This document shows, piece after piece, positions 1-43,796 of a DNA stretch of 64,000 nucleotides. Numbering within the stretch: position 1 is the stretch's first letter; every line of letters begins with the position of its first letter. The stretch is from Methanosarcina flavescens (lineage in GTDB: Archaea > Halobacteriota > Methanosarcinia > Methanosarcinales > Methanosarcinaceae). The DNA is taken from NCBI RefSeq assembly GCF_001304615.2, contig NZ_CP032683.1, forward strand, positions 2,728,001-2,792,000, written 5' to 3'. The notes beneath the pieces are model-generated. The model saw nothing but the letters and a program-made list of their open reading frames with translations. It had not been told where the DNA came from and searched no databases. The position numbers and the translations under genes were made by a program.

Positions 1-965
1 TTATAGTTGTAGGCGGATGTTTAGAAGAGACAAACAATTTATTAAACGCTGAAAAAATAATAAATAATTCTCAGGAAAGATACGGATCTATTGACGTATT
101 TAAGTATACAGTAATTTCCACAACAGAGTTTCAAGGAGAAGAAGTAACTCAAAAAATAGATTTTTTGTTTAAGAAGCCAAACAAGTATAAGTGCATTTAT
201 CAATCAAAGAACTTAACTACAGTTTCTAATGGAACAGTTACCTGGATATACGATTTAACTAAAGGTGAAGTAACAGTAAAACATTTAGAAGGCTATAAAG
301 GAACACCAGATTTTGATTATGGCACTCTTCTTAAAGACTTACTTAAAACTAATAATGTGAAATTAATTGGAGAAAAGGAACTATTTGGAAAATCATGTTA
401 TATAATTGAAGCTATACCAAAAAATAAAACTTCTATAATATCTCAAGACATGTGGGTAGATAAAGAAAGCTTGATTCCAGTTAGAATCGATACAAATTAT
501 GGAGATTATAAATCAAGGGTAGAATACACAAATATATTCGTAAGCACTGATGTTAACGACAATGAATTTGAGTTTACTCTACCAGAAGGCGCAAAAATTA
601 TAGAACCGAGCACAACACTTCCCAACCAAGTCAATATAGAAGAAGCTCAGAAGAGCGTAAATTTTACAATATTGAAACCTTCTTATTGTGCTGGGTACCA
701 ATTCGCAGGGGTGACAGTACTTGAATATGGAAATAGTGCTTATTTAACCTATTCTAAAGAAGGAAACGTGTTAACTATTTTTCAAACTCCATCCAAGAGT
801 TCAGTATCAAATGTAGGAAATATTACAATCGAAAATTTAAAAGGGAAAACAATCGAAATATTTGACAATACAATTATCAAATATAACTATGGGAATACAT
901 ATATTATAATTTCAGGTCCAGTAAGTGAACAAGAGCTTATAAAAATAGCAGAGTCTTTGGGATAA
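1..965 (+). CDS. LolA-like lipoprotein with DUF4367-type C-terminus (5' end outside window)
   Basis: The frame is open from base 3. It begins inside a signal peptide reading IVVGGC, a lipobox, so the first bases encode the end of an archaeal lipoprotein signal and the true start lies before the window. The mature protein resembles the LolA-like fold (residues WVDKESLIPVRI and FEFTLPEGAKI are typical), followed by a second domain of about 100 residues of the DUF4367 type. It is presumably anchored outside the cytoplasmic membrane; its ligand is unknown. A TTG at 165 is only an internal codon. It is the first of three related genes in 2.7 kb, here called by similarity to the gene at 1900-2709. 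Family assignment is from recognition, not a search. Confidence 0.75.
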   Translation, partial: IVVGGCLEETNNLLNAEKIINNSQERYGSIDVFKYTVISTTEFQGEEVTQKIDFLFKKPNKYKCIYQSKNLTTVSNGTVTWIYDLTKGEVTVKHLEGYKGTPDFDYGTLLKDLLKTNNVKLIGEKELFGKSCYIIEAIPKNKTSIISQDMWVDKESLIPVRIDTNYGDYKSRVEYTNIFVSTDVNDNEFEFTLPEGAKIIEPSTTLPNQVNIEEAQKSVNFTILKPSYCAGYQFAGVTVLEYGNSAYLTYSKEGNVLTIFQTPSKSSVSNVGNITIENLKGKTIEIFDNTIIKYNYGNTYIIISGPVSEQELIKIAESLG

Positions 966-3153: not shown

Positions 3154-3867
3154 GATGACCATGAAGGAAGAAAAGGAAAGAAAATCAATGTGTCGGATGG
3201 CTCCATGAAGATCACTGTGCTTACGAATAGTTCATATAGTGATCGGTAAAGTTCCCCTTATAGCCTGGGAGATTTGCAAAGATAAAGGGGCTGACCGTCT
3301 GATATGGTAGCGTGAGATTGAGAAATATCCCATAAAAAAGCGGTATGCCCTATGCCTATGTGGTCACTCAGAGAACAAAACCATTCTGTGACGGGACATA
3401 TTAAAAGGTTCACTTTGATGGAACCGAATCAGGAGACTTTAAACCCTTTTGGGCAGTTCAAACGCTTATCCTTGGCGCTTTTTTGACTCTTATTGACAAC
3501 AACACTATGTGTCCACGCAGGATTCTGCACACAGGCAGGGAGAATATGAAACCTTGTCGAACAATCCGAAAATCCGGAAGCTTGAGACATTGCTATTGAG
3601 GAAGCCTGCAACTGCCCTTAGGTAGGTTGATAATTATTGATAATGTTACAGGAAAGACAATTGAGCCTGAACTTGAAAAGTCGATTGTCATCGAGGAAGG
3701 CCTCATCGTGGCGAGCATGGTCCTCTCTGAGTACGCGGCGAGATCCCGATAAATCCGCAGATGGCAAACAGTATGAGATCAGGAATAGGGTCATTCTCTG
3801 CAGGCGTGGAGAATCCAAAAATAAACCATTCTGTGATGGAAGTCATGCAAAGACTGGGAAAGATTGA
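3154..3867 (+). pseudogene. Decayed CDGSH-type iron-sulfur protein gene
   Basis: Pieces of one protein appear in order but in different frames with internal stops: ITVLTNSSY, VIGKVPLIAWEICKDKGADRLIW then a stop, KKRYALCLCGHSENKPFCDG (first CDGSH motif), CVHAGFCTQAGRI then a stop, NLVEQSENPEA, IAIEEACNCP, a stop, VTGKTIEPELEKSIVIEEGLIV, and finally DGKQYEIRNRVILCRRGESKNKPFCDGSH ending at 3867 (split here over positions 3756-3867). Intact relatives carry two CDGSH [2Fe-2S] motifs in about 210 residues. At least two frameshifts and three stops are needed to explain it. A 76-codon open frame at 3637-3867 covers only the last motif and is not a functional gene on its own. Confidence 0.8.
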
Positions 3868-3908
3868 GAAAATTGATACAGTGTATGTGGGTGAATTCAA
3901 TATAATGC

Positions 3909-5627
3909 TTAATTATGACAGCACAGCCCTATTCTTGAATCCACAAGCCTCTTTGTATACTCATCAGAAGGTGAAAGCATCACATCGTGGGAATTACCCA
4001 TCTCTACAATTTTTCCGGAATTCATAACGGCTATTCTGTCAGCAATCTTCAGGGTCAGGGAGAGATCGTGTGAAATATATATCATTGCAAACCCTCTCCT
4101 GTTCTGAAGGCCCTTTAAAAGACGCAATACATTCGCGGAGGTTGAAACATCCAGAGCCGAAGTTATCTCATCGGCAATAAGGAGTTTTGGCTGCATAACC
4201 ATTGCTCTGGCAAGTGCGACCCTCTGTCTCTGTCCGCCGCTGAGTTCCCCGCAATATTTTCTGAGGAAATTATCAGTACTGGGAAGATGAACAAGTTCAA
4301 GGGCATTTTTAACCATTTGCAGTCTATCCCCATTGGACCCGATTTTATTGATATAAAGAGGCTCTTTGACTGCGTCAAGCACGGTAAACCTGTTGCTGGT
4401 CGAACTGAACGGGTCCTGGAATACTATCTGAATGCCATTGAACCTGTTTCCATAGTTACCCCTGCTGACATTACCGTCCATAAACAATACCTCTCCGGAT
4501 TCGGGTCTTATTACGTTTGCAAGGATGTGTGCAAGGGTTGACTTGCCCGAACCGGTCTGACCGACAATTGCAAGGACCTCTCCTTCAGTCACTTCCAGAC
4601 TGACATTATCAACTGCCTGAATATATTCTCCATCTGGAAGACGATAGCTGAAATTCAGGTTCTTTGCTTCCAGAAGGTTTGCTATGCCCCCTCTATGGCA
4701 TGCAATTTCCCGTCGGCCTCCTACAGGCATCAGGACCGGAGAAGCTTTACTGCAAATATCGATTTTTTGCGTACATCTCGGGCTGAAAGGACATCCCTTA
4801 AACTCATCCCCTGCCGGCACGTCCCCGGGAATCCCCCATAAATCTTTATAAACGAAAATATCCGGAGTCGAATGGACAAGCCCCCTCGTATAAGGGTGCC
4901 GGGGAGATACAAGAATCTCCCTTACAGGGCCGGATTCCACAACCCTTCCCGAATACATAACTGCAATCCTGGACGCCACAGAAGAAACAAAAGTGATATC
5001 ATGAGAGATCATTAACATCGTATACCCGTTCTTCTTCTGAAGGTCAACCAGAAGGTCCCTGATCTCCTTTCGGGTAAATGCGTCAAGTGCAGAAGTAACT
5101 TCATCAAGAATCAGTAGTTTCGGATCGCATGAAAGAGCCATTGCCAGAAGAACTCTCTGCCTCATACCCCCTGAGAGCTGATGCGGATATGAATCCATCC
5201 ATTTCGGATCAAGGCCGACAGTCCGGAATAGATCGGCACATTTACTCCGGGCCATTTCAGAGCTGATATCAAGATGTCTTATCATTGGTTCTGTTACCTG
5301 AACGCCTACTCTCATAACAGGATTCATAACCTCCAGGCTGTTCTGGAAAACTATTGCAATATCTTTCCATCTTAATTTATCCATTTCGGGTTCAGGCAAA
5401 GAAGAGAGAACCTCCTCCCTGTAAAGAATTTCACCAAAAATGGCTGTATTTTCCGGCAAAAGCCCCATGATTCCAAGTGCAACAGTAGTCTTGCCACTTC
5501 CGGATTCTCCAACAATGCCCAGTATTTCTCCTTCTTCGATTTCAAAAGAAATGCCGTCAACAGCCTTAACAGTATTACTGTCTGTTAGATAGTGGCATTT
5601 AAGATTATTGACTTTAAGCAGACTCAT
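3909..5627 (-). CDS. Peptide/nickel-type ABC importer, fused double ATPase (DppD-DppF fusion)
   Basis: The 572 residues contain two complete nucleotide-binding domains that are usually separate proteins. Domain 1 has Walker A GESGSGKTT near residue 40, signature LSGGMRQR near 150 and Walker B LLILDEVTSALD, then the Cys-containing oligopeptide C-terminal extension (CPFSPRCTQKIDIC). Domain 2 has GQTGSGKST near 355, LSGGQRQR and LLIADEITSALD. It would energise uptake through the two permeases encoded immediately upstream in the same operon; two bases separate it from the second permease gene. Substrate could be peptides, nickel or a metal chelate; sequence alone does not decide. Last gene of a five-gene minus-strand operon. 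Confidence 0.92.
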   Translation of the reverse strand: MSLLKVNNLKCHYLTDSNTVKAVDGISFEIEEGEILGIVGESGSGKTTVALGIMGLLPENTAIFGEILYREEVLSSLPEPEMDKLRWKDIAIVFQNSLEVMNPVMRVGVQVTEPMIRHLDISSEMARSKCADLFRTVGLDPKWMDSYPHQLSGGMRQRVLLAMALSCDPKLLILDEVTSALDAFTRKEIRDLLVDLQKKNGYTMLMISHDITFVSSVASRIAVMYSGRVVESGPVREILVSPRHPYTRGLVHSTPDIFVYKDLWGIPGDVPAGDEFKGCPFSPRCTQKIDICSKASPVLMPVGGRREIACHRGGIANLLEAKNLNFSYRLPDGEYIQAVDNVSLEVTEGEVLAIVGQTGSGKSTLAHILANVIRPESGEVLFMDGNVSRGNYGNRFNGIQIVFQDPFSSTSNRFTVLDAVKEPLYINKIGSNGDRLQMVKNALELVHLPSTDNFLRKYCGELSGGQRQRVALARAMVMQPKLLIADEITSALDVSTSANVLRLLKGLQNRRGFAMIYISHDLSLTLKIADRIAVMNSGKIVEMGNSHDVMLSPSDEYTKRLVDSRIGLCCHN

Positions 5628-6628: not shown

Positions 6629-7608
6629 ATCCCAACTCTCGGATCAAGTTTTTCGTATATTTTGTCAACCAGCAGATTGCAGATAAGTATGGAGACTGCA
6701 ATTACCAGGAGAATCCCCTGAATAAGAGGATAATCCCGGCCGACTACAGCACTTCTGAGAGTCATCCCTATGCCAGGATAGGAAAAAACACTCTCAACAA
6801 GTACAACACCCCCCATCATTGTACCGACCATAAAACCTGTTCTTGTCACTACCGGAAGCAGGGCATTTCGAAGTGCATGCCGGTTCCATACAGTTTTTTC
6901 ACCCAGGCCTTTGGCCCGGGCAGTCCTGATATAATCCTTTGTGGTCACTGTAATCAGTGTATTTCTGGTGAGCAGGTACACCCCGGTCAGCTGTGAAAGT
7001 GACAGAGTCACAACAGGCAGAAAGGCATGGTACAATATATCCCATGCCTGTTCTACCGGACCATTATAGTTTGCAAAGGGAGTAACAGCTCCTGCAAGCG
7101 GGAAAAACCTGAGATATACACTAAAAAACAGGAGAAGGATCAGGCCAAGCAGAAATGAAGGAATTTCTGCAAAGGTGATCATACCCATCATTATAATTCT
7201 ATCACTCCCATTTTTCCGGTTTTTTGCCGATATTGTTCCGAGCACCACACCTGAGATTGTACTGACTACTGTAGCACACACGACAATCAACATAGTCCAG
7301 GGAAGATGAAGTAGAATTACATCACTGACCGGCATTTTGTAATAAATACTCCTGCCCAGATTTCCAGTCATTAGATTTTTCATATAGACTAAAAACTGTT
7401 CATGCAATGGCCTGTCAAGTCCGTAATAGTTTATGTAATAAAGGCGCTGCTCCTCCGTCATTTCAATAATTTCTTCCCCGACCTCGTCTGCGGAAGTTGT
7501 GGAGAATGGATCTCCGGGCATCATCCTTGGAAGAAAAAAATTAATGGCAAGAATTACAAAAAGGGTCAATAACAACCTGAAAATGAACGAATTCCTGTCC
7601 TTTTCCAT
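6625..7608 (-). CDS. ABC importer permease, DppB/NikB type
   Basis: The 327-residue protein has an N-terminal membrane segment, PRMMPGDPF as in DppB/NikB proteins, and five further membrane spans. The cytoplasmic coupling loop reads YIRTARAKGLGEKTVWNRHALRNALLP. It forms the membrane channel with the DppC-type protein whose gene overlaps its end. It follows the methyltransferase gene after a 56-base gap occupied by a short tandem repeat. Function as a permease is certain; the transported substrate is not. Confidence 0.92.
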   Translation of the reverse strand: MEKDRNSFIFRLLLTLFVILAINFFLPRMMPGDPFSTTSADEVGEEIIEMTEEQRLYYINYYGLDRPLHEQFLVYMKNLMTGNLGRSIYYKMPVSDVILLHLPWTMLIVVCATVVSTISGVVLGTISAKNRKNGSDRIIMMGMITFAEIPSFLLGLILLLFFSVYLRFFPLAGAVTPFANYNGPVEQAWDILYHAFLPVVTLSLSQLTGVYLLTRNTLITVTTKDYIRTARAKGLGEKTVWNRHALRNALLPVVTRTGFMVGTMMGGVVLVESVFSYPGIGMTLRSAVVGRDYPLIQGILLVIAVSILICNLLVDKIYEKLDPRVGI

Positions 7609-7611
7609 CCA

Positions 7612-7681
7612 ATCATCTGCCGTTAAATTACTATCCGATCATCTGCCGTTAAATTACTATCCGATCATTTGCCGTTAACTT
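7612..7681. repeat. 26-bp tandem repeat, 2.7 copies, at the methyltransferase stop codon
   Basis: Units begin at 7612, 7638 and 7664; the first two are identical and start ATCATCTGCCGTTAAATTAC. The partial third copy contains the last codons and stop of the methyltransferase gene (reading VNGK-stop on the minus strand), so the end of that gene has been tandemly duplicated into the gap before the permease gene. Confidence 0.85.
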
Positions 7682-8588
7682 TCCAGGTCATCATACCGGT
7701 ATATACATCCGACTCAGAACGGTACATTCCATCCACAGAGGCATTTTTATAATAATTCCTTATTTTTTCCTTTGTTTCTTCATCAAAATCACGGCCCCGT
7801 CCAATAAACTCAATTGCCTGGTCTGCCGCTTCTTTCCAGTCCGTTTCTTCATTCCATTCGGAATGGTTGATCCTGACCGAGGGCCTGTAGCCTGAGAGGT
7901 AAAGATACATGAATGGATAGATTATGCCGTTCATATTATTCGCAGAGTTTTCACCGAGTATTGAACTCCGGATATCACGATACGCCTTATCCTCACCTCT
8001 CCTCAGAAAGTTACTGTAATAACAAAGGTTTTTTGAGCAGGCTATCATCATATCAAAGTTTTCAACATCCCTTATTCCGGGAGTCATGGAGGCAATTACA
8101 AGGTCAAACTCGTTCCTGAAACCAAGCTCATCTATATCTGCCGTCCACCAGGAGCATTCAATGACATCTACCGGCAGGGACTCCTTTTTTACCGCATCTC
8201 TTAATCTGTTGAGCATTCCGGACGATATGTCAAGTGAAGTCACCTCTGCTCCAAGCCTTGCAAGCGGAAGGGACAGGGTTCCAGGTCCGCATCCGATATC
8301 CAGAACTCTGGAACCTTCCGGATTAAAACCGGCTTCTTCAAGAAATTCGAGAATATCATCGGTTTTCTTCTTTCGTTTACCTTTGTCAATATTATTGGCA
8401 TAGTTCTCCGAGCGTTTGTTCCAGAATTCTGCCATCCTGCCCTCATCCAGGATACTCAGACCATTACCTGTAGCTTTTTTCCAGCATTCGACCAAGTTAT
8501 TAATATCATCTTTTTTATCATCTTTTTTCTGCAATTCCATCCCTCTCAAGATACGAAAGAATACTGTGTGTTCTTGCATGGTGGTCAT
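7665..8588 (-). CDS. Class I SAM-dependent methyltransferase in the ABC importer operon
   Basis: The protein of up to 307 residues has the class I Rossmann core: motif [23 protein letters not shown] near residue 95-117, then [11 protein letters not shown] and a post-motif region [13 protein letters not shown]-terminal residues ([15 protein letters not shown]) resemble ubiquinone/SAM methyltransferases. It sits between the solute-binding protein and permease genes. The longest start (8588) overlaps the binding-protein gene by 71 bases; an internal ATG at 8540 would reduce this to 23, but neither has a well placed Shine-Dalgarno. Such genes in nickel/peptide importer operons suggest modification of the imported ligand or a metallophore, which is inference. 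Confidence 0.85.
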
Positions 8589-16070: not shown

Positions 16071-16111
16071 GGTTATTTTCAATTCCCGGATGAAAACCGA
16101 GTTAATACGTC

Positions 16112-16759
16112 ATGGTTATAAGGAATGTAAGAAATTTTGGTCACATGGACACAATTTACTATGAAGCTCACAAAAATCTCTATCTTAACCTTACAAACCG
16201 CTGCAGTGCGGATTGTATCTTCTGCATCCGCAATTTTGCAGACGGGGTTTACGGATATAACCTGAGGCTCTCGAAAGAACCGGCAGCTGAAGAAGTCATC
16301 GAAGCCCTGAAAGGATTGGATCTTTCAAAATATCGGGAAATTGTATTCACAGGACTTGGAGAACCTACTCTCAGGTTTGACACAGTGCTTGCAATAACCC
16401 GCTGGCTAAAAAGTCGGAATGTCCGGGTCAGGCTTGATACCAACGGACAGGCAGCCCTGATAAATCCGGGAAGAGATGTGATCTCGGAATTGAAATCCGC
16501 AGGCATAGACTCCGTTTCCGTAAGTTTGAACGCTGAGTCCGAAGAAAAGTATAACAAACTCTGCAGGCCGATTCACAAAAACGCTTATGGTGCAGTGCTC
16601 GATTTTATAAGAGGAGCAAAACAGGCAGGAATCTATACAAGAGTTACAGTAGTTGAAGTGTCCGAAATAGACATAGAAGAGTGTAGAAAGCTTACCGAGG
16701 AGCTCGATTCGGATTTCCATATAAGGGCTTTATCCGAAGCTGCAAGCAAAGATATTTGA
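16112..16759 (+). CDS. TatD-linked radical SAM protein
   Basis: The 215-residue protein has the radical SAM iron-sulfur motif C-x3-C-x2-C in NLTNRCSADCIFCIRNF near residue 30-45, then the strand FTGLGEPTLRF and RVRLDTNGQ. The short length and sequence are those of the radical SAM family often found beside or fused to TatD-type nucleases; its substrate is unknown. An alternative ATG at 16145 (MDTIYYEAHKNLYLNLTNRC) would shorten the protein by 11 residues and resembles the family start; no Shine-Dalgarno decides between them. No TatD gene is visible in the window. Confidence 0.82.
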   Translation: MVIRNVRNFGHMDTIYYEAHKNLYLNLTNRCSADCIFCIRNFADGVYGYNLRLSKEPAAEEVIEALKGLDLSKYREIVFTGLGEPTLRFDTVLAITRWLKSRNVRVRLDTNGQAALINPGRDVISELKSAGIDSVSVSLNAESEEKYNKLCRPIHKNAYGAVLDFIRGAKQAGIYTRVTVVEVSEIDIEECRKLTEELDSDFHIRALSEAASKDI

Positions 16760-16914: not shown

Positions 16915-17124
16915 GAGATTTACAGTACTGAGATTAATAGTATCGAAATTTGCAGCACTGAAATTTAAAGAATTAAGATTTACATAACTGAGATTTAAAG
17001 AATTAAGATTTACATAACTGAGATTTACGGGATTGAGATTTACGGGACTGAGATTTACAGGACTGAGATTTACAGGACTGAGATTTACAATATTGAGGTT
17101 TATAGAAAGGAAATTTCCAGAACT
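16915..17124. repeat. 15-bp tandem repeat array, 14 units
   Basis: Exact 15-base periodicity with consensus GAGATTTACAGGACT. Units start at 16915, 16930 and so on to 17110; a 30-base super-unit is repeated at 16975 and 17005. Units are contiguous with no spacers, unlike a CRISPR. The array lies between the convergent radical SAM and beta-propeller genes and decays toward 17160. Confidence 0.93.
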
Positions 17125-37124: not shown

Positions 37125-38315
37125 TTACTGTATGTCTCCCCCTACCTCAGCATATCTGGGATCGATTTCTACAGCTTTTCTGTATGCTTCTTCAGCCTCT
37201 TCTTCCCGTCCGAGGAAACTCAGGCAGACAGCCTTCCCAAACCAGGAGTCTGCAGCCTCAGGATTAAGCTGGAGCGCCTTTTCGTATATCTCCAGAGCTT
37301 CCTCAAAACGCTTGAGTTGGGCGAGCACGAAACCCAGACTGGAATAAGCTTCGAAATACTCAGGGTCAAGCTCTATGGCTTTCCTGTATGTATCTACGGC
37401 TTCTTCAAATTTCTGCATCTGGCTCAGGGTAAAACCTTTGTTGTACCAGACATCGGCATTTTCGGCGTTAATTTCAATTGCTCTGTCAAAAGCTTTAATT
37501 GCCTCATCATATTTCTCGAGATTCTCGAGGTCTATTCCCATATTGTTCCAGGCATCATCGTTCTCAGGATCCAGTTCCACAGCTTTTTCATAGGCTTTCA
37601 GTGCCTGCCTGTAACTTCCAAGACTGTCCAGGTCCACACCTTTATAGTACCAGGCTTCAAGGAAATCAGGATCAAGTTCTAATGCCTTGTCGTAAGCGAT
37701 AATTGCCTCATCATAGTTGCCCATTTGTCCGAGAGCTACTCCTTTTCCTACCCAGGCTTCTTTATAATCGGGATTTTCCTCAAGTACCTTTTCATAGGCT
37801 TCGATAGCCGCCTCGTATTCTCCAACCTGGCTCAGGTTCAGGGCCTTTCCGTACCATGCGTTGGGATAGTCAGGTCTTATCTCAAGAGCTTTTTCATAGG
37901 CTTTGATAGCCTCTTTGTGCTTTCCAGCCTGGGAAAAGGAAAAAGCTATATTGTTCCAGAGATCAGGATCCTCAGGATTGATTTTTATAGCTTTGTTATA
38001 GAGCTCAATGGCTTCTTCATATCTTCCAAGGGTCTCAAGGACTGCAGCCTTATTGTTTAAAAGGTATATGTTATTCGGGTCCTTGCTGATTGCCTTGTCA
38101 AAAGATACAATTGCCTCATTAAGCTTCCCAAGCCTGAGAAAGTCAAGTCCACATTCGTTAAGTTCGGCTGCAAGGATCTCGTCGGTGACTTCCTGCTTAC
38201 CCACATTCCCCGTATCACTCAGAACATACATATCTTCGGAAACTGGTTTTTCTTCAGATTTTTCTTTCCCACCTTCTTTTGTGAAGGTTTTGTCATTTGG
38301 TTCATCGGAGTTCAT
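37125..38315 (-). CDS. TPR repeat protein, about nine repeats
   Basis: The 396-residue protein has a charged N-terminal tail (about 50 residues, Lys/Glu-rich), then consecutive 34-residue tetratricopeptide repeats. Repeats follow the pattern AW-NKG-AL-LG-YEEAI-AYDKALELDP, for example PDYPNAWYGKALNLSQVGEY. No signal peptide or catalytic domain is present, so it is a cytoplasmic protein-interaction scaffold. A second TPR protein, shorter and differently arranged, is encoded at 41994. TPR families are expanded in Methanosarcina; partners are unknown. Confidence 0.9.
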   Translation of the reverse strand: MNSDEPNDKTFTKEGGKEKSEEKPVSEDMYVLSDTGNVGKQEVTDEILAAELNECGLDFLRLGKLNEAIVSFDKAISKDPNNIYLLNNKAAVLETLGRYEEAIELYNKAIKINPEDPDLWNNIAFSFSQAGKHKEAIKAYEKALEIRPDYPNAWYGKALNLSQVGEYEAAIEAYEKVLEENPDYKEAWVGKGVALGQMGNYDEAIIAYDKALELDPDFLEAWYYKGVDLDSLGSYRQALKAYEKAVELDPENDDAWNNMGIDLENLEKYDEAIKAFDRAIEINAENADVWYNKGFTLSQMQKFEEAVDTYRKAIELDPEYFEAYSSLGFVLAQLKRFEEALEIYEKALQLNPEAADSWFGKAVCLSFLGREEEAEEAYRKAVEIDPRYAEVGGDIQ

Positions 38316-39782: not shown

Positions 39783-40394
39783 TTGGCAGACGAAAAAGTA
39801 AGCGAGAAACCGAGTATAGAGACGATTAATCCAGGTAAGGAACAGCAGAAATCTATAGCTGATATGTTCAAAGTGGACCTATGTGGTCCTATAAAAGATC
39901 AAATTGGCAAAGAGATAGATATCTGCGGTCCCAATATAGAGATTACACCATGCAGCCCTTTAATGGAGTCAAAATGGTGCTTGCCTACTCTCATAGAAAA
40001 TTGTATACCAGCACATTGTATACCAACAATTCCAACATATCGCTCTGCAGCTATGAGATTTACAATATGCGACCCAATATTCTGCAATCCTTTAGTAGGG
40101 CCGTGCCCGCCCACATGGTGCGAGCCCAAATGTGGACCAGCACTACCAAGACTTCAACGTGAAGCTACAATATGCTATCCTAGTTGCATTCCTGTGTTTT
40201 ATGAGCCGTTAAGCGAATGTCGTCCAAAATTCACAATAGAGTGCATTCCCGATAGAATCTGTGATCCATTGAAGTGGTGGATTGAGTATCCATTTGCTGG
40301 TCCAGTCCCTGACCCGTGGATAGAAATTATCAAAAATATTAAATCGATTAAAGATGAGATTGAGAATCTTAAGAAGAGAATTGAGAATGTTTGA
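39783..40394 (+). CDS. Protein with sixteen Cys-X-Pro motifs, probable radical SAM substrate (RiPP-like precursor)
   Basis: The 203-residue protein has a leader-like N-terminus of about 30 Cys-free residues, then 16 cysteines at 34, 48, 57, 66, 74, 79, 96, 101, 108, 113, 117, 131, 135, 146, 154 and 160. Every one is followed by X-Pro (CGP, CSP, CLP, CIP, CDP and so on). A Trp-rich segment and a charged helical tail (IEIIKNIKSIKDEIENLKKR) close it. There is no signal peptide. Start is TTG 39783 after a long G run. The radical SAM/SPASM gene follows 69 bases on. I know no family with this repeat; the precursor role is inferred from context. Confidence 0.8.
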   Translation: MADEKVSEKPSIETINPGKEQQKSIADMFKVDLCGPIKDQIGKEIDICGPNIEITPCSPLMESKWCLPTLIENCIPAHCIPTIPTYRSAAMRFTICDPIFCNPLVGPCPPTWCEPKCGPALPRLQREATICYPSCIPVFYEPLSECRPKFTIECIPDRICDPLKWWIEYPFAGPVPDPWIEIIKNIKSIKDEIENLKKRIENV

Positions 40395-40463
40395 TTCCTG
40401 AGAGTCCAGAATGAGGGGATTGCCATTCTTAATCAATATTTTTTCTTACTTCCAGAAAAGGAG

Positions 40464-41744
40464 TTGGTCAATGGAGCCAAATACTCACTAATATTAGATT
40501 TTTGTAACGGTGGGATCTATCGACTCAATAAATCTGCCACCCGCATTATAGAATCTGGAGGAAAAGGTCTCAGAATCTCAGAGGTTGCTGAAGAACTTAA
40601 TCTTGAGCTCTCAGATATATCAGCGTTTGTCACAAGTTTATCACGTCAGGGGTTAATTCAATTATCTTCATTGCCGCCTAAACCTGAAACTCAGAAAACT
40701 GATGAGAAGGAGGCATCTCCCCAACTTGACTTCCTATGGGTCGAGATGACTTCTAGGTGTAACTTGCGCTGTTTACACTGCTATGCTGATGCTAAGCCGA
40801 AGCAAGATCCTGATCTTACAACGGACGAAATCAAAAGGGTTATCGGTCAGGCAGCTGATTTAGGCTGCAAGAAGATTCAGTTTACTGGAGGGGAATGCAC
40901 ACTCAGAGAGGATCTGAGGGATCTAATTGATCATGCAAGGTTAAAGGGATTCAGTTTCATAGAAGTATTTACTAATGGCACGCTATTGACTGAACCATTG
41001 ATCAGATACTTCGCTTCTGTAGGGGTTAACGTGGCCATATCTATTTACTCTTACAGGCAAGAGACTCATGATACCATAACAGGTACTAAGGGCAGCTTTG
41101 AGAAGACACTGAATAGCCTTAAGCTTCTATTGGCTTATGGTGTTCCAACACGGTGTGCAACTATAGCGATGAAGCAGAACGAAGTTGATCTCGATGGGAC
41201 AAGTTACTATCTTCAACAGCTTGGTGTCCAGAACAGACCTCCAGATCCTATCAGACCAAGTGGGAGAGGTTGTAATATGGAAAATTGGCCCCAGCAGTAT
41301 GTGCTCAAAACTGTCAAAACCGAACCCAATTTCGTTGCTAACAGGGAAATTTATGACTATAATAGATCGCGGAACAGTTGCTGGTTCGGTAAAATAGCGA
41401 TTACAAATGAAGGAGACATTCTTCCCTGTGTTTTCGCCAGAGATCAGGTTGCTGGCAACATCAAAGATCAAAGTCTGAAGGAGATAATTGAGAATAGAAT
41501 GCTCAAGTTCTGGAATTTAACCATAGATCAAATTGATGTTTGTAAAGACTGTGAATATCGATACCTATGTCATGACTGCAGACCCTGGGCTTATGGATTT
41601 ACTGGGAACCTCTATGCAAAGTCTCCACGATGTACCTATAATCCATACACCGGTGAATGGGGTAGTGCTGAGAGCGCATTTCTCGATATCCAACAAAAGA
41701 GTGCAGATTTAAGTATAATTTGGGCTGGCTTAATTAATGTGTGA
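40464..41744 (+). CDS. Radical SAM/SPASM peptide-modifying enzyme with PqqD-like N-terminus
   Basis: The 426-residue protein begins with about 80 residues resembling a PqqD/RRE recognition domain (NGGIYRLNKSATRIIESGGK, then a small helix-turn unit ISEVAEELNLELSDISAFV). The radical SAM core follows, with C-x3-C-x2-C in VEMTSRCNLRCLHCYADAKP and GG(E/D) motif QFTGGECTLRED. The SPASM-type end holds CWFGKIAITNEGDILPCVFA and CKDCEYRYLCHDC plus a last Cys in SPRCTYNP, enough for two auxiliary clusters. Such enzymes crosslink Cys in RiPPs. TTG 40464 is tight to AAAAGGAG; upstream codons are open back to the precursor stop, so the start is uncertain. Confidence 0.9.
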   Translation: MVNGAKYSLILDFCNGGIYRLNKSATRIIESGGKGLRISEVAEELNLELSDISAFVTSLSRQGLIQLSSLPPKPETQKTDEKEASPQLDFLWVEMTSRCNLRCLHCYADAKPKQDPDLTTDEIKRVIGQAADLGCKKIQFTGGECTLREDLRDLIDHARLKGFSFIEVFTNGTLLTEPLIRYFASVGVNVAISIYSYRQETHDTITGTKGSFEKTLNSLKLLLAYGVPTRCATIAMKQNEVDLDGTSYYLQQLGVQNRPPDPIRPSGRGCNMENWPQQYVLKTVKTEPNFVANREIYDYNRSRNSCWFGKIAITNEGDILPCVFARDQVAGNIKDQSLKEIIENRMLKFWNLTIDQIDVCKDCEYRYLCHDCRPWAYGFTGNLYAKSPRCTYNPYTGEWGSAESAFLDIQQKSADLSIIWAGLINV

Positions 41745-41993: not shown

Positions 41994-42872
41994 TCAAAGG
42001 AGATCGGAATAAATCGGGTTTATATCGACTGCCCTCTCATAGGCTTCCATTGCTTTCTGGTGTTTCTTAATCCTGTCGTATACAATACCTTTACCAATCC
42101 AGGCTTTTGTAAAACTTGGATTGATATCGATAGCCCTCTCAAAAGCCTGAAGTGCCTCTTCATACCTCTCCAGGTCCCTTAGGGCAATTCCCTTATTATA
42201 CCAGAACCGGGCATTCTCAGGATTTATTTTTATCTTGCTATCAAAAACCTCCACAGCCTTTTCCGTATAAAGTCTTGCTTCTTCATGCTTTCCAAGCCAG
42301 CGGAGAGCTACACCTTTGTTATAAAGAGCCTTTCCGTTAGCAGGGTTTAATTCAAGTGCCTTGTCAAACGCGCTAACAGCTTCTTCAAAACTCTTTATCT
42401 TGCAGAGCCCCATGCCTTTCTTGCACCATTCGCTTGCACTCATGGAACTCATGTCGTATTTCTTTTCATAAAGACGGATAGCCTTCTCAAAATCATCCAT
42501 AGCGTCTTCGTATGCCTTCATTTCCCTCAGAGCCATTCCTCGCCTGTACCAGACATCTGGGTCTTCAGGAGCGAGATATATAGCCCGGTAGTAAGCATCC
42601 AGAGCCTCTCTATACTGCATCAGATCCATAAGCAGTTCAGCTTTGGAGTACCAGGTTTTCGCATCCGCAGGATTGATCTCAAGGGACCTGTTAAGGGCAT
42701 CGAGAGCCTCTTCATATCTGAAAAGACTTCTCAGAACTATCCCTTTGCAAAGCAGGATTTTTGCATTGTCAGGGCTTGCTTCCAGAGCTTTATTGTATGC
42801 ATCCAGAGCTTCCTGTAATCGTCCAAGCTCATGGAGTGCAGCACCTTTATTGTACCACTCGTTCGAAGTCAT
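41994..42872 (-). CDS. TPR repeat protein, about seven repeats
   Basis: The 292-residue protein is nearly all tetratricopeptide repeats, starting at once with SNEWYNKGAALHELGRLQEA. Later repeats include DVWYRRGMALREMKAYEDAM and RFWYNKGIALRDLERYEEAL. A less regular unit with two Met-Ser stretches (YDMSSMSASEWCKKGMG) sits in the middle. It lacks a signal peptide and acts presumably as a cytoplasmic scaffold. The start at 42872 is chosen over a GTG one codon earlier. It converges on the radical SAM gene across a shared terminator. Confidence 0.88.
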   Translation of the reverse strand: MTSNEWYNKGAALHELGRLQEALDAYNKALEASPDNAKILLCKGIVLRSLFRYEEALDALNRSLEINPADAKTWYSKAELLMDLMQYREALDAYYRAIYLAPEDPDVWYRRGMALREMKAYEDAMDDFEKAIRLYEKKYDMSSMSASEWCKKGMGLCKIKSFEEAVSAFDKALELNPANGKALYNKGVALRWLGKHEEARLYTEKAVEVFDSKIKINPENARFWYNKGIALRDLERYEEALQAFERAIDINPSFTKAWIGKGIVYDRIKKHQKAMEAYERAVDINPIYSDLL

Positions 42873-43796
42873 CACTCAACCACACCTTTTTTCGATTACG
42901 TTTTTCCACATTTATCACATAAACTCCAGCAATAATAATATATGCCTTCAGAGCGTTAAATCAATTTTGTACTTTAGTTCCGTATCAAAAATAAGGAGAT
43001 ATTCACTCCTCACACCATGATTTACGCCCTGACGACATATTTACAGTTGCATATGATCCTATGTTCTGCTCTTTTTTAAGGATTTTGAAATATTCCAGAA
43101 CTTTATTATTTTAAAAATATAGTTTTAAAGTTGCGGGTAAGAATTAGGTAAGGTTAAACAATTTTATACCGGGCTCTTTCAAATTATTACTAAAGTTAAT
43201 AAAAATATATTAATCTTATTCTCAGGTTTTTCCGACTTTTTTCTATTTACTCCATATTTTTGCCCTGACATGAAAAAGGTAGACCTATAAAATAAAAACG
43301 GAAAAATGAGATAAGTTCAATTCTGATAAAAGTTGGGATTCCCTTCTTTCACGGCATGTTAACAGTTTGATTATTAGCTTTTCTATTGGGAATATGAGAA
43401 TCTCTCTAAGTTCAGGAGACTGAACTTGATACCTGAGCTTCAAATTAGGGAGGGGAATCTTCCTTTCACAGCTTTTAATCTTCTGAAAGTGTATTCCAAA
43501 GATATTTACACAAATATTGGATATGATTATGCCGGGAATTACGGCAGATATCATAAATTAATCAATTAAGTTCAGGAAGCTATTATAGACGTGACATATA
43601 TTTTTAACAGGATGTTTAATAAAAGCGTTTAGTACAGACAATTAATAAAAGCGCCTTAGAACGTTTTGGATATGCCTGAAAAGATACAAATTTTCAAGGG
43701 AGTGCCCTAAAAGATCTGTTTTTTCAGAACCATTTTTCCGCTTGCAATGCCCTTGCGAAAGAAAGAGTTCTTTCCTGCTATAAGCTGGCTTTCGAG
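42873..43796. other. Long AT-rich spacer without supported genes
   Basis: About 920 bases. An 89-codon open frame at 43285-43554 (minus) has no ribosome-binding site, no recognisable family and odd composition, so it is not called. I see no RNA gene or strong repeat. Confidence 0.4.

Follow-up and report, generated by a model that had tools for sequence, protein, structure and literature searches.

In the SCIFF/CteB (thermocellin; ranthipeptides) and PapB/PapA (freyrasin) systems, a Cys-rich precursor adjoins a radical SAM/SPASM maturase with an N-terminal RRE. Grasp-with-spasm maturases are paired with an ATP-grasp, and in borosins (OphMA-type) the substrate lies in cis at the C-terminus of the modifying enzyme. 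The precursor PapA has a multi-site Cys motif with six CX3D units (PMC10470005), and the radical SAM/SPASM enzyme SbtM acts on the Cys/Sec of a precursor and forms a thiooxazole from Cys (PMC11002830). Archaeal radical SAM RiPP systems were few in the papers that we searched.

Here, we analysed a window of 64,000 nucleotides from the archaeon Methanosarcina flavescens (2.73–2.79 Mb of its 3.28-Mb single-contig genome), in which a gene for a protein rich in Cys-x-Pro (C-x-P) triads precedes a radical SAM/SPASM gene. This arrangement resembles the SCIFF/CteB and PapB/PapA systems, and the repeated C-x-P resembles the multi-site motif of PapA. However, the motif is C-x-P and not CX3D or that of SCIFF, and it occurs up to 16 times. 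The SbtM thio(seleno)oxazole system is likewise comparable, by description only, in combining a radical SAM/SPASM enzyme with a precursor Cys. In the literature searched, which was covered partially for subscription journals, we found no use of a CxP or Cys-X-Pro motif with a radical SAM enzyme, and recognised no archaeal, Bathyarchaeia, candidate-phyla or fused radical SAM system of the C-x-P kind. Our best reading is that the locus belongs to a cross-domain, apparently undescribed radical SAM RiPP-type family. We put a probability of roughly 80% on a two-gene RiPP-type system in which the leader would be held by the RRE and the C-x-P triads would undergo radical modification, with a second branch of self-tailed enzymes.

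A precursor-like protein with all its cysteines in C-x-P

The first-pass annotation of this DNA had claimed that all 16 Cys of the protein are followed by X-Pro, over residues 34–160, after a Cys-free start. Both the ORF reading and shuffling bore this out. Pro stands at +2 in 16/16 cases, residues 1–33 contain no Cys, and 200,000 composition-preserving shuffles of the 203-aa protein gave at most 10 C-x-P (mean about 2) versus the 16 of the real sequence. The features of this gene are as follows.

39783..40394, + strand: C-x-P precursor-like protein of 203 aa, TTG start, 16/16 Cys in C-x-P (ORF reading, shuffles, homologues)
39783..39881, + strand: Cys-free leader-like N-terminus, residues 1–33, with the motif KPSIETINP, common by eye to the archaeal and WWE3 precursors
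39882..40268, + strand: C-x-P core region, residues 34–162, from the Cys and Pro positions in the 203-aa protein
40314..40391, + strand: putative C-terminal helical segment, about residues 178–203, common to the two closest archaeal homologues (alignment A5); helix read from the sequence

The C-terminal ∼25 residues have a helical or coiled-coil look. No Pfam or NCBIfam model matches the protein, and direct protein searches with it gave no matches in viral contigs, phages or plasmids. A hint of a UXPK-star selenoprotein domain in this system (E 0.23) was taken as chance.

The adjoining radical SAM/SPASM maturase

The next gene had been described as PqqD-like, radical SAM and SPASM in composition, and we observed the same from the CNLRCLHC motif, PF04055 (3.6e-25), SPASM PF13186 (4.8e-8) and a weak PqqD match (Pfam, E 0.037). 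Its ORF (40464–41744, + strand) and domains thus stand as first read, but the listed TTG start at 40464 does not. The frame is kept for ∼15 codons 5′ of this TTG in the window and the archaeal homologues (GIAILNQYFFLLPEKEL / GIAFLSNYFFLSEKKAL / ILFINNYYFLSENKC in the three archaea), and these ∼15 residues have a confident fold in the structure model (pLDDT 92). Therefore, translation probably begins at position 40419 or 40425, from an unusual codon such as ATT.

40419..41744, + strand: radical SAM/SPASM maturase, listed as an ORF from TTG 40464, with the true start probably at ATT 40419 or 40425
40419..40667, + strand: predicted N-terminal RRE (PqqD-like) domain, from the secondary structure of the model, the alignments with CteB and TigE, which span it, and the PqqD match
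40758..40781, + strand: radical SAM CxxxCxxC motif (CNLRCLHC), with Cys114, 118 and 121 invariant in alignment A4
41379..41633, + strand: SPASM domain, from C321, CKDCEYRYLCHDC (PF13186; alignment A3)

In three archaea, the maturase genes seem to have non-ATG starts (ATT/ATC or TTG), shortly 3′ of a G-rich stretch (window 40419–40427; L011 9940–9960; L068 8060–8095), and the precursors paired with them have good starts. Possibly, the non-ATG starts reflect a deliberately low expression of the archaeal maturase.

The structure model, in which 25 homologues were used, has a mean pLDDT of 90.9. Its top matches among the solved structures were SuiB (Z 24.4, 300 residues, 3.4 Å), CteB (Z 24.1, 357 residues over 12..406, 6.9 Å, over the RRE, SAM and SPASM domains), SkfB (Z 23.0) and TigE (Z 19.2, 353 residues over 5..403, including the N-terminal RRE), all of which are RiPP maturases. 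By sequence, the nearest solved structures were those of the sactipeptide maturase SkfB (6e-32) and of CteB (1.3e-21).

None of the NCBIfam equivalogs was reached by the window maturase; the top model was TIGR04053 (140 bits, cut-off 395). The SCIFF and PapB cut-offs were also not attained: no precursor model matched, PapB was outside the best 25 models for the window maturase, and the PapB model gave 45.8 bits (cut-off 340) with one fused enzyme of the family (L016, see below). Similarly, the curated sactipeptide models scored low (StsB 125.7 bits of 625, AlbA 84.7 of 850, SkfB outside the best 25). In contrast to the SkfB, AlbA and StsB systems, the C-x-P cores repeat one motif 2–16 times, the precursors reach 203 aa, and a fused branch exists. 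The SPASM domain most similar outside the C-x-P family is that of the grasp-with-spasm maturases (TIGR04193), including Bacteroidetes matches (L020–L026) without the radical SAM Cys motif in the aligned stretch. We dropped this identity at 107.7 bits against a cut-off of 175, with no ATP-grasp recognised among the ORFs at 36–46 kb of the window. The C-x-P family is therefore outside the curated SCIFF/ranthipeptide, sactipeptide and grasp-with-spasm models, yet like them in architecture.

Distribution of the pair and conservation of the C-x-P rule

At the thresholds used, the window maturase was found in no other genome among the 112 of its family or the 393 of its phylum, and the C-x-P protein was missing from the other 111 family genomes searched; the pair was thus probably acquired horizontally. 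The nearest relative of the maturase in the tree is a Bathyarchaeia enzyme with 58% identity. A scan of 84,980 species for the enzyme gave matches in Bathyarchaeota, Jorgensenbacteria, WWE3, Clostridium, Micrarchaeota and Parcubacteria. At E ≤ 1e-50, relatives were present in 3/257 genomes of the class of Bathyarchaeota (including the divergent G309, which lacks C-x-P), 6/384 of the class of Jorgensenbacteria, 8/45 of the WWE3 class and 12/207 of the Clostridium family.

A C-x-P protein is linked to a maturase homologue in 21 loci (archaea, candidate phyla and Clostridium), with adjoining C-x-P proteins in Thermoproteota, WWE3, other candidate-phyla bacteria and Clostridium. Across 20 precursors of 33–203 aa, 98 of the 107 Cys are in C-x-P (per precursor 13/13, 6/8, 6/6, 4/4, 4/4, 5/5, 5/5, 7/7, 3/3, 5/5, 5/6, 3/3 and others). 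The Clostridium precursors of L014 and L084 measure 48–50 aa. Three precursors from the class of Jorgensenbacteria have CQCCKPGPCSPK-like cores that are partly off the rule, and three Clostridium loci (L082, L083 and L091) have the maturase with no C-x-P ORF nearby. We examined the archaeal locus L099 after the rule had been formulated, and observed two precursors of 73 and 33 aa that start with MSKKEKPK and have 4/4 Cys in C-x-P. In the family loci, which total 493 kb, 17 ORFs had at least 3 Cys with at least 75% of them in C-x-P, and every one was a precursor; around other radical SAM genes (785 kb), none of the 2116 ORFs with at least 3 Cys was of this kind. The RiPP-type pairing suggested by the first-pass annotation, which depended on conservation of the motif and linkage of the enzyme, is hence upheld across several phyla, L099 included. 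It gains further support from the fused enzymes, the accompanying RRE loss and the linked genes for a protease-like protein and a RiPP-type methyltransferase (see below). Its picture of an archaeal system with an unusually long precursor was too narrow; most of the relatives are bacterial, and the window protein is at the upper end of the length range.

Among the 98 C-x-P sites, the residue X and position +3 after Cys are variable, and no conserved Asp, Glu or Thr stands at a fixed spacing of the CX3D type as a ranthipeptide acceptor. Pro is the sole residue conserved one-to-one with Cys. Most precursors also have, by eye, a short common motif before the first C-x-P, resembling KPxIE/ELV: KPSIETINP in the window, and KPTIEKINP, RPRIELLQS, ERPTIELVT, EEPTIELVT, EKPEIKLVT and, in Clostridium, FELVEI elsewhere. 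To the eye, this motif looks like the kind of strand bound by RREs, and it would pair with the RRE-like fold predicted in the maturase model.

Enzymes with a C-x-P tail of their own

In four loci (L016, L017, L070 and L072), the maturase itself ends in a C-x-P tail, and a tandem duplicate is present in L072. A single-motif scan of viral contigs returned 80 loci, of which only the top five (L100–L104) have C-x-P tails and are further fused forms; the rest served as a control set. Plasmid records gave fused forms from Streptomyces (among them S. canus and S. clavuligerus, the latter with the pSCL4 gene L182), Amycolatopsis, Rhizobium sullae and Paraburkholderia. This second branch has members in the candidate phyla, Streptomyces, Amycolatopsis, Rhizobium and Paraburkholderia, with 2–8 tail Cys per enzyme, as in the tail of Amycolatopsis sp. 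AA4, SCHPSCAPDPCQPTCAPRCSPSCSPCAPFRRCWPTYR. For the Streptomyces enzymes, 'radical SAM protein' is the only annotation given.

All the fused enzymes checked have short N-termini without room for an RRE, and the second set of SPASM Cys, half of the total, is gone. Unfused enzymes with linked precursors keep both the RRE and this second set; the L012 maturase is cut by the contig start, with most of its RRE still in frame. In the tree, the fused enzymes and a Micrarchaeota enzyme with neither RRE nor tail (L015) form one clade with an ultrafast bootstrap of 100.

The RRE is lost exactly where the C-x-P segment is covalently attached, which is strong indirect evidence that this segment is the substrate of the maturase. 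With the substrate in cis, the loss of the RRE together with half of the SPASM Cys would be expected. Borosins and the fused branch are alike in the C-terminal, in cis position of the (here putative) substrate, but the borosin enzyme is an N-methyltransferase and the C-x-P enzyme a radical SAM protein, and their folds are unrelated.

Genes linked to the C-x-P system

Of the 15 candidate-phyla loci where it was sought, 13 encode a protein of ∼250 aa that has HExxH and ExxxD motifs; its gene adjoins that of the maturase in L012 (1493–2290), L013 (11514–12260) and 11 other loci (alignment A2). The protein has no Pfam match, and its model (pLDDT 89.7) shows moderate likeness to M1/M4 zinc peptidases (best Z 7.5), with an oxygenase HExxH domain (8s5f, Z 5.3) also among the fold matches. 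The name protease thus comes mainly from the HExxH and ExxxD pattern, and we consider the protein a candidate gluzincin-like protease. We found it neither in the genome of the window nor in the Bathyarchaeia and Clostridium genomes searched, and the archaeal loci have no linked protease or exporter.

After the fused gene, Streptomyces loci usually have one for a relative of RiPP-type isoaspartyl methyltransferases, related to the methyltransferase of ATP-grasp peptide maturase systems (TIGR04188, 7.5e-79, below cut-off). In L070, an FKBP-type prolyl isomerase gene (7383–7856, E 7.6e-35) directly adjoins the fused maturase; as a single case, its fit with the conserved prolines is suggestive. 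In the window, two related TPR-repeat genes (37125–38315 and 41994–42875, − strand) flank a HAD hydrolase gene, the C-x-P gene and the maturase gene.

Proposed mechanism and alternative explanations

We propose that the C-x-P protein is held by its leader (KPSIE...) at the RRE of the maturase and that the enzyme would then act repeatedly, by iterative radical chemistry, on the C-x-P triads. The Cys thiolate would probably sit on an auxiliary Fe–S cluster while the 5′-deoxyadenosyl radical takes a hydrogen from the triad. A study on PapB reports direct binding of the substrate to the auxiliary cluster (PMC10470005), and by analogy the same would be a reasonable model for the C-x-P maturase. The outcome at each C-x-P would be an oxidative change centred on Cys, with a thioether (−2 Da) as the likeliest. 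As X and +3 are unconserved, only Pro can be a one-to-one acceptor; otherwise, Pro would form a turn that sets the register, with the change on Cys or X. In candidate-phyla bacteria, the HExxH protein may trim the product, and in the second branch the substrate would have turned into the C-terminal tail of the enzyme, with the RRE dispensable. The archaeal loci have no linked protease or exporter and the helical tail is kept, and so the archaeal protein may act whole, as a modified cytosolic protein.

Given a RiPP system, we see about an even chance that the bond at C-x-P is a thioether; an SbtM-like thiooxazole-type oxidation and epimerisation are the alternatives. A modification that makes no crosslink, be it epimerisation, a thiooxazole-type oxidation of Cys (−4 Da, as by SbtM) or another, with Pro serving only for recognition or as a turn, has somewhat less than an even chance. 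It is a rival in chemistry alone and leaves the RiPP reading intact, and it would agree with the lack of a fixed acceptor of the usual type (for example, the Asp of CX3D) around the Cys; moreover, SbtM provides a known thiooxazole-forming enzyme of the radical SAM/SPASM type. On the other hand, SkfB and CteB, which are nearest in sequence among the solved structures, form thioethers, although this does not fix the reaction.

An improbable reading is that the C-x-P proteins and tails are metal- or Fe–S-handling segments, either ligands that load or complete the clusters of the enzyme or co-regulated, unmodified metal-binding proteins. Their richness in Cys, and the fused enzymes in which C-x-P Cys stand in place of the missing second SPASM set, would agree with it. 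Yet the C-x-P triads differ freely in number (2 to 16) and spacing, with a duplication in L072, which is unsuited to a fixed set of ligands, the unfused enzymes have a C-x-P partner despite their complete SPASM domain, and neither the leader motif with its RRE nor the loss of the RRE upon fusion finds a clear place. We give next to no credence to chance, that is, a low-complexity ORF beside an unrelated radical SAM gene. The protein is indeed Pro- and Cys-rich and unmatched in Pfam and NCBIfam, but shuffles never produced more than 10 of the 16 triads, and the recurrence of rule and linkage across phyla, missing around other radical SAM genes, contradicts it.

Beyond the two-gene RiPP-type reading, we lean slightly towards an undescribed RiPP class with C-x-P cores. 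It would comprise a two-gene form (archaea, candidate phyla, Clostridium) and a self-modifying form that has shed the RRE and half of SPASM (Streptomyces, Proteobacteria, candidate phyla), and its chemistry would be a previously unseen Cys modification set by the Pro two residues downstream. An archaeal oddity is tied to a family that spans domains and has culturable Streptomyces among its members. If true, this would add a RiPP class whose sequence rule is very simple and minable by pattern, and radical SAM enzymes with a built-in substrate, which may make it easier to study how substrates bind at auxiliary clusters; it would also suggest a route from RRE-dependent maturases to self-modifying ones.

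Degenerate copies and other features of the window

In L099, a truncated second copy of the N-terminal part of the maturase (PPKLDSLWIKLTSSCNLRCIHCYAEVKAG; 3702–4076) lies near the intact gene. A near-identical Clostridium-type maturase with an in-frame TAG, and thus a decaying copy, is present in the genome of L019 (L092, 7128–7730). The window also has a second, short radical SAM ORF of another kind (16106–16759, a 217-aa frame), unrelated to the C-x-P system, and an ORF-like stretch with a short in-frame tandem repeat (LRFTG repeated; 17018–17080) that is probably non-coding.
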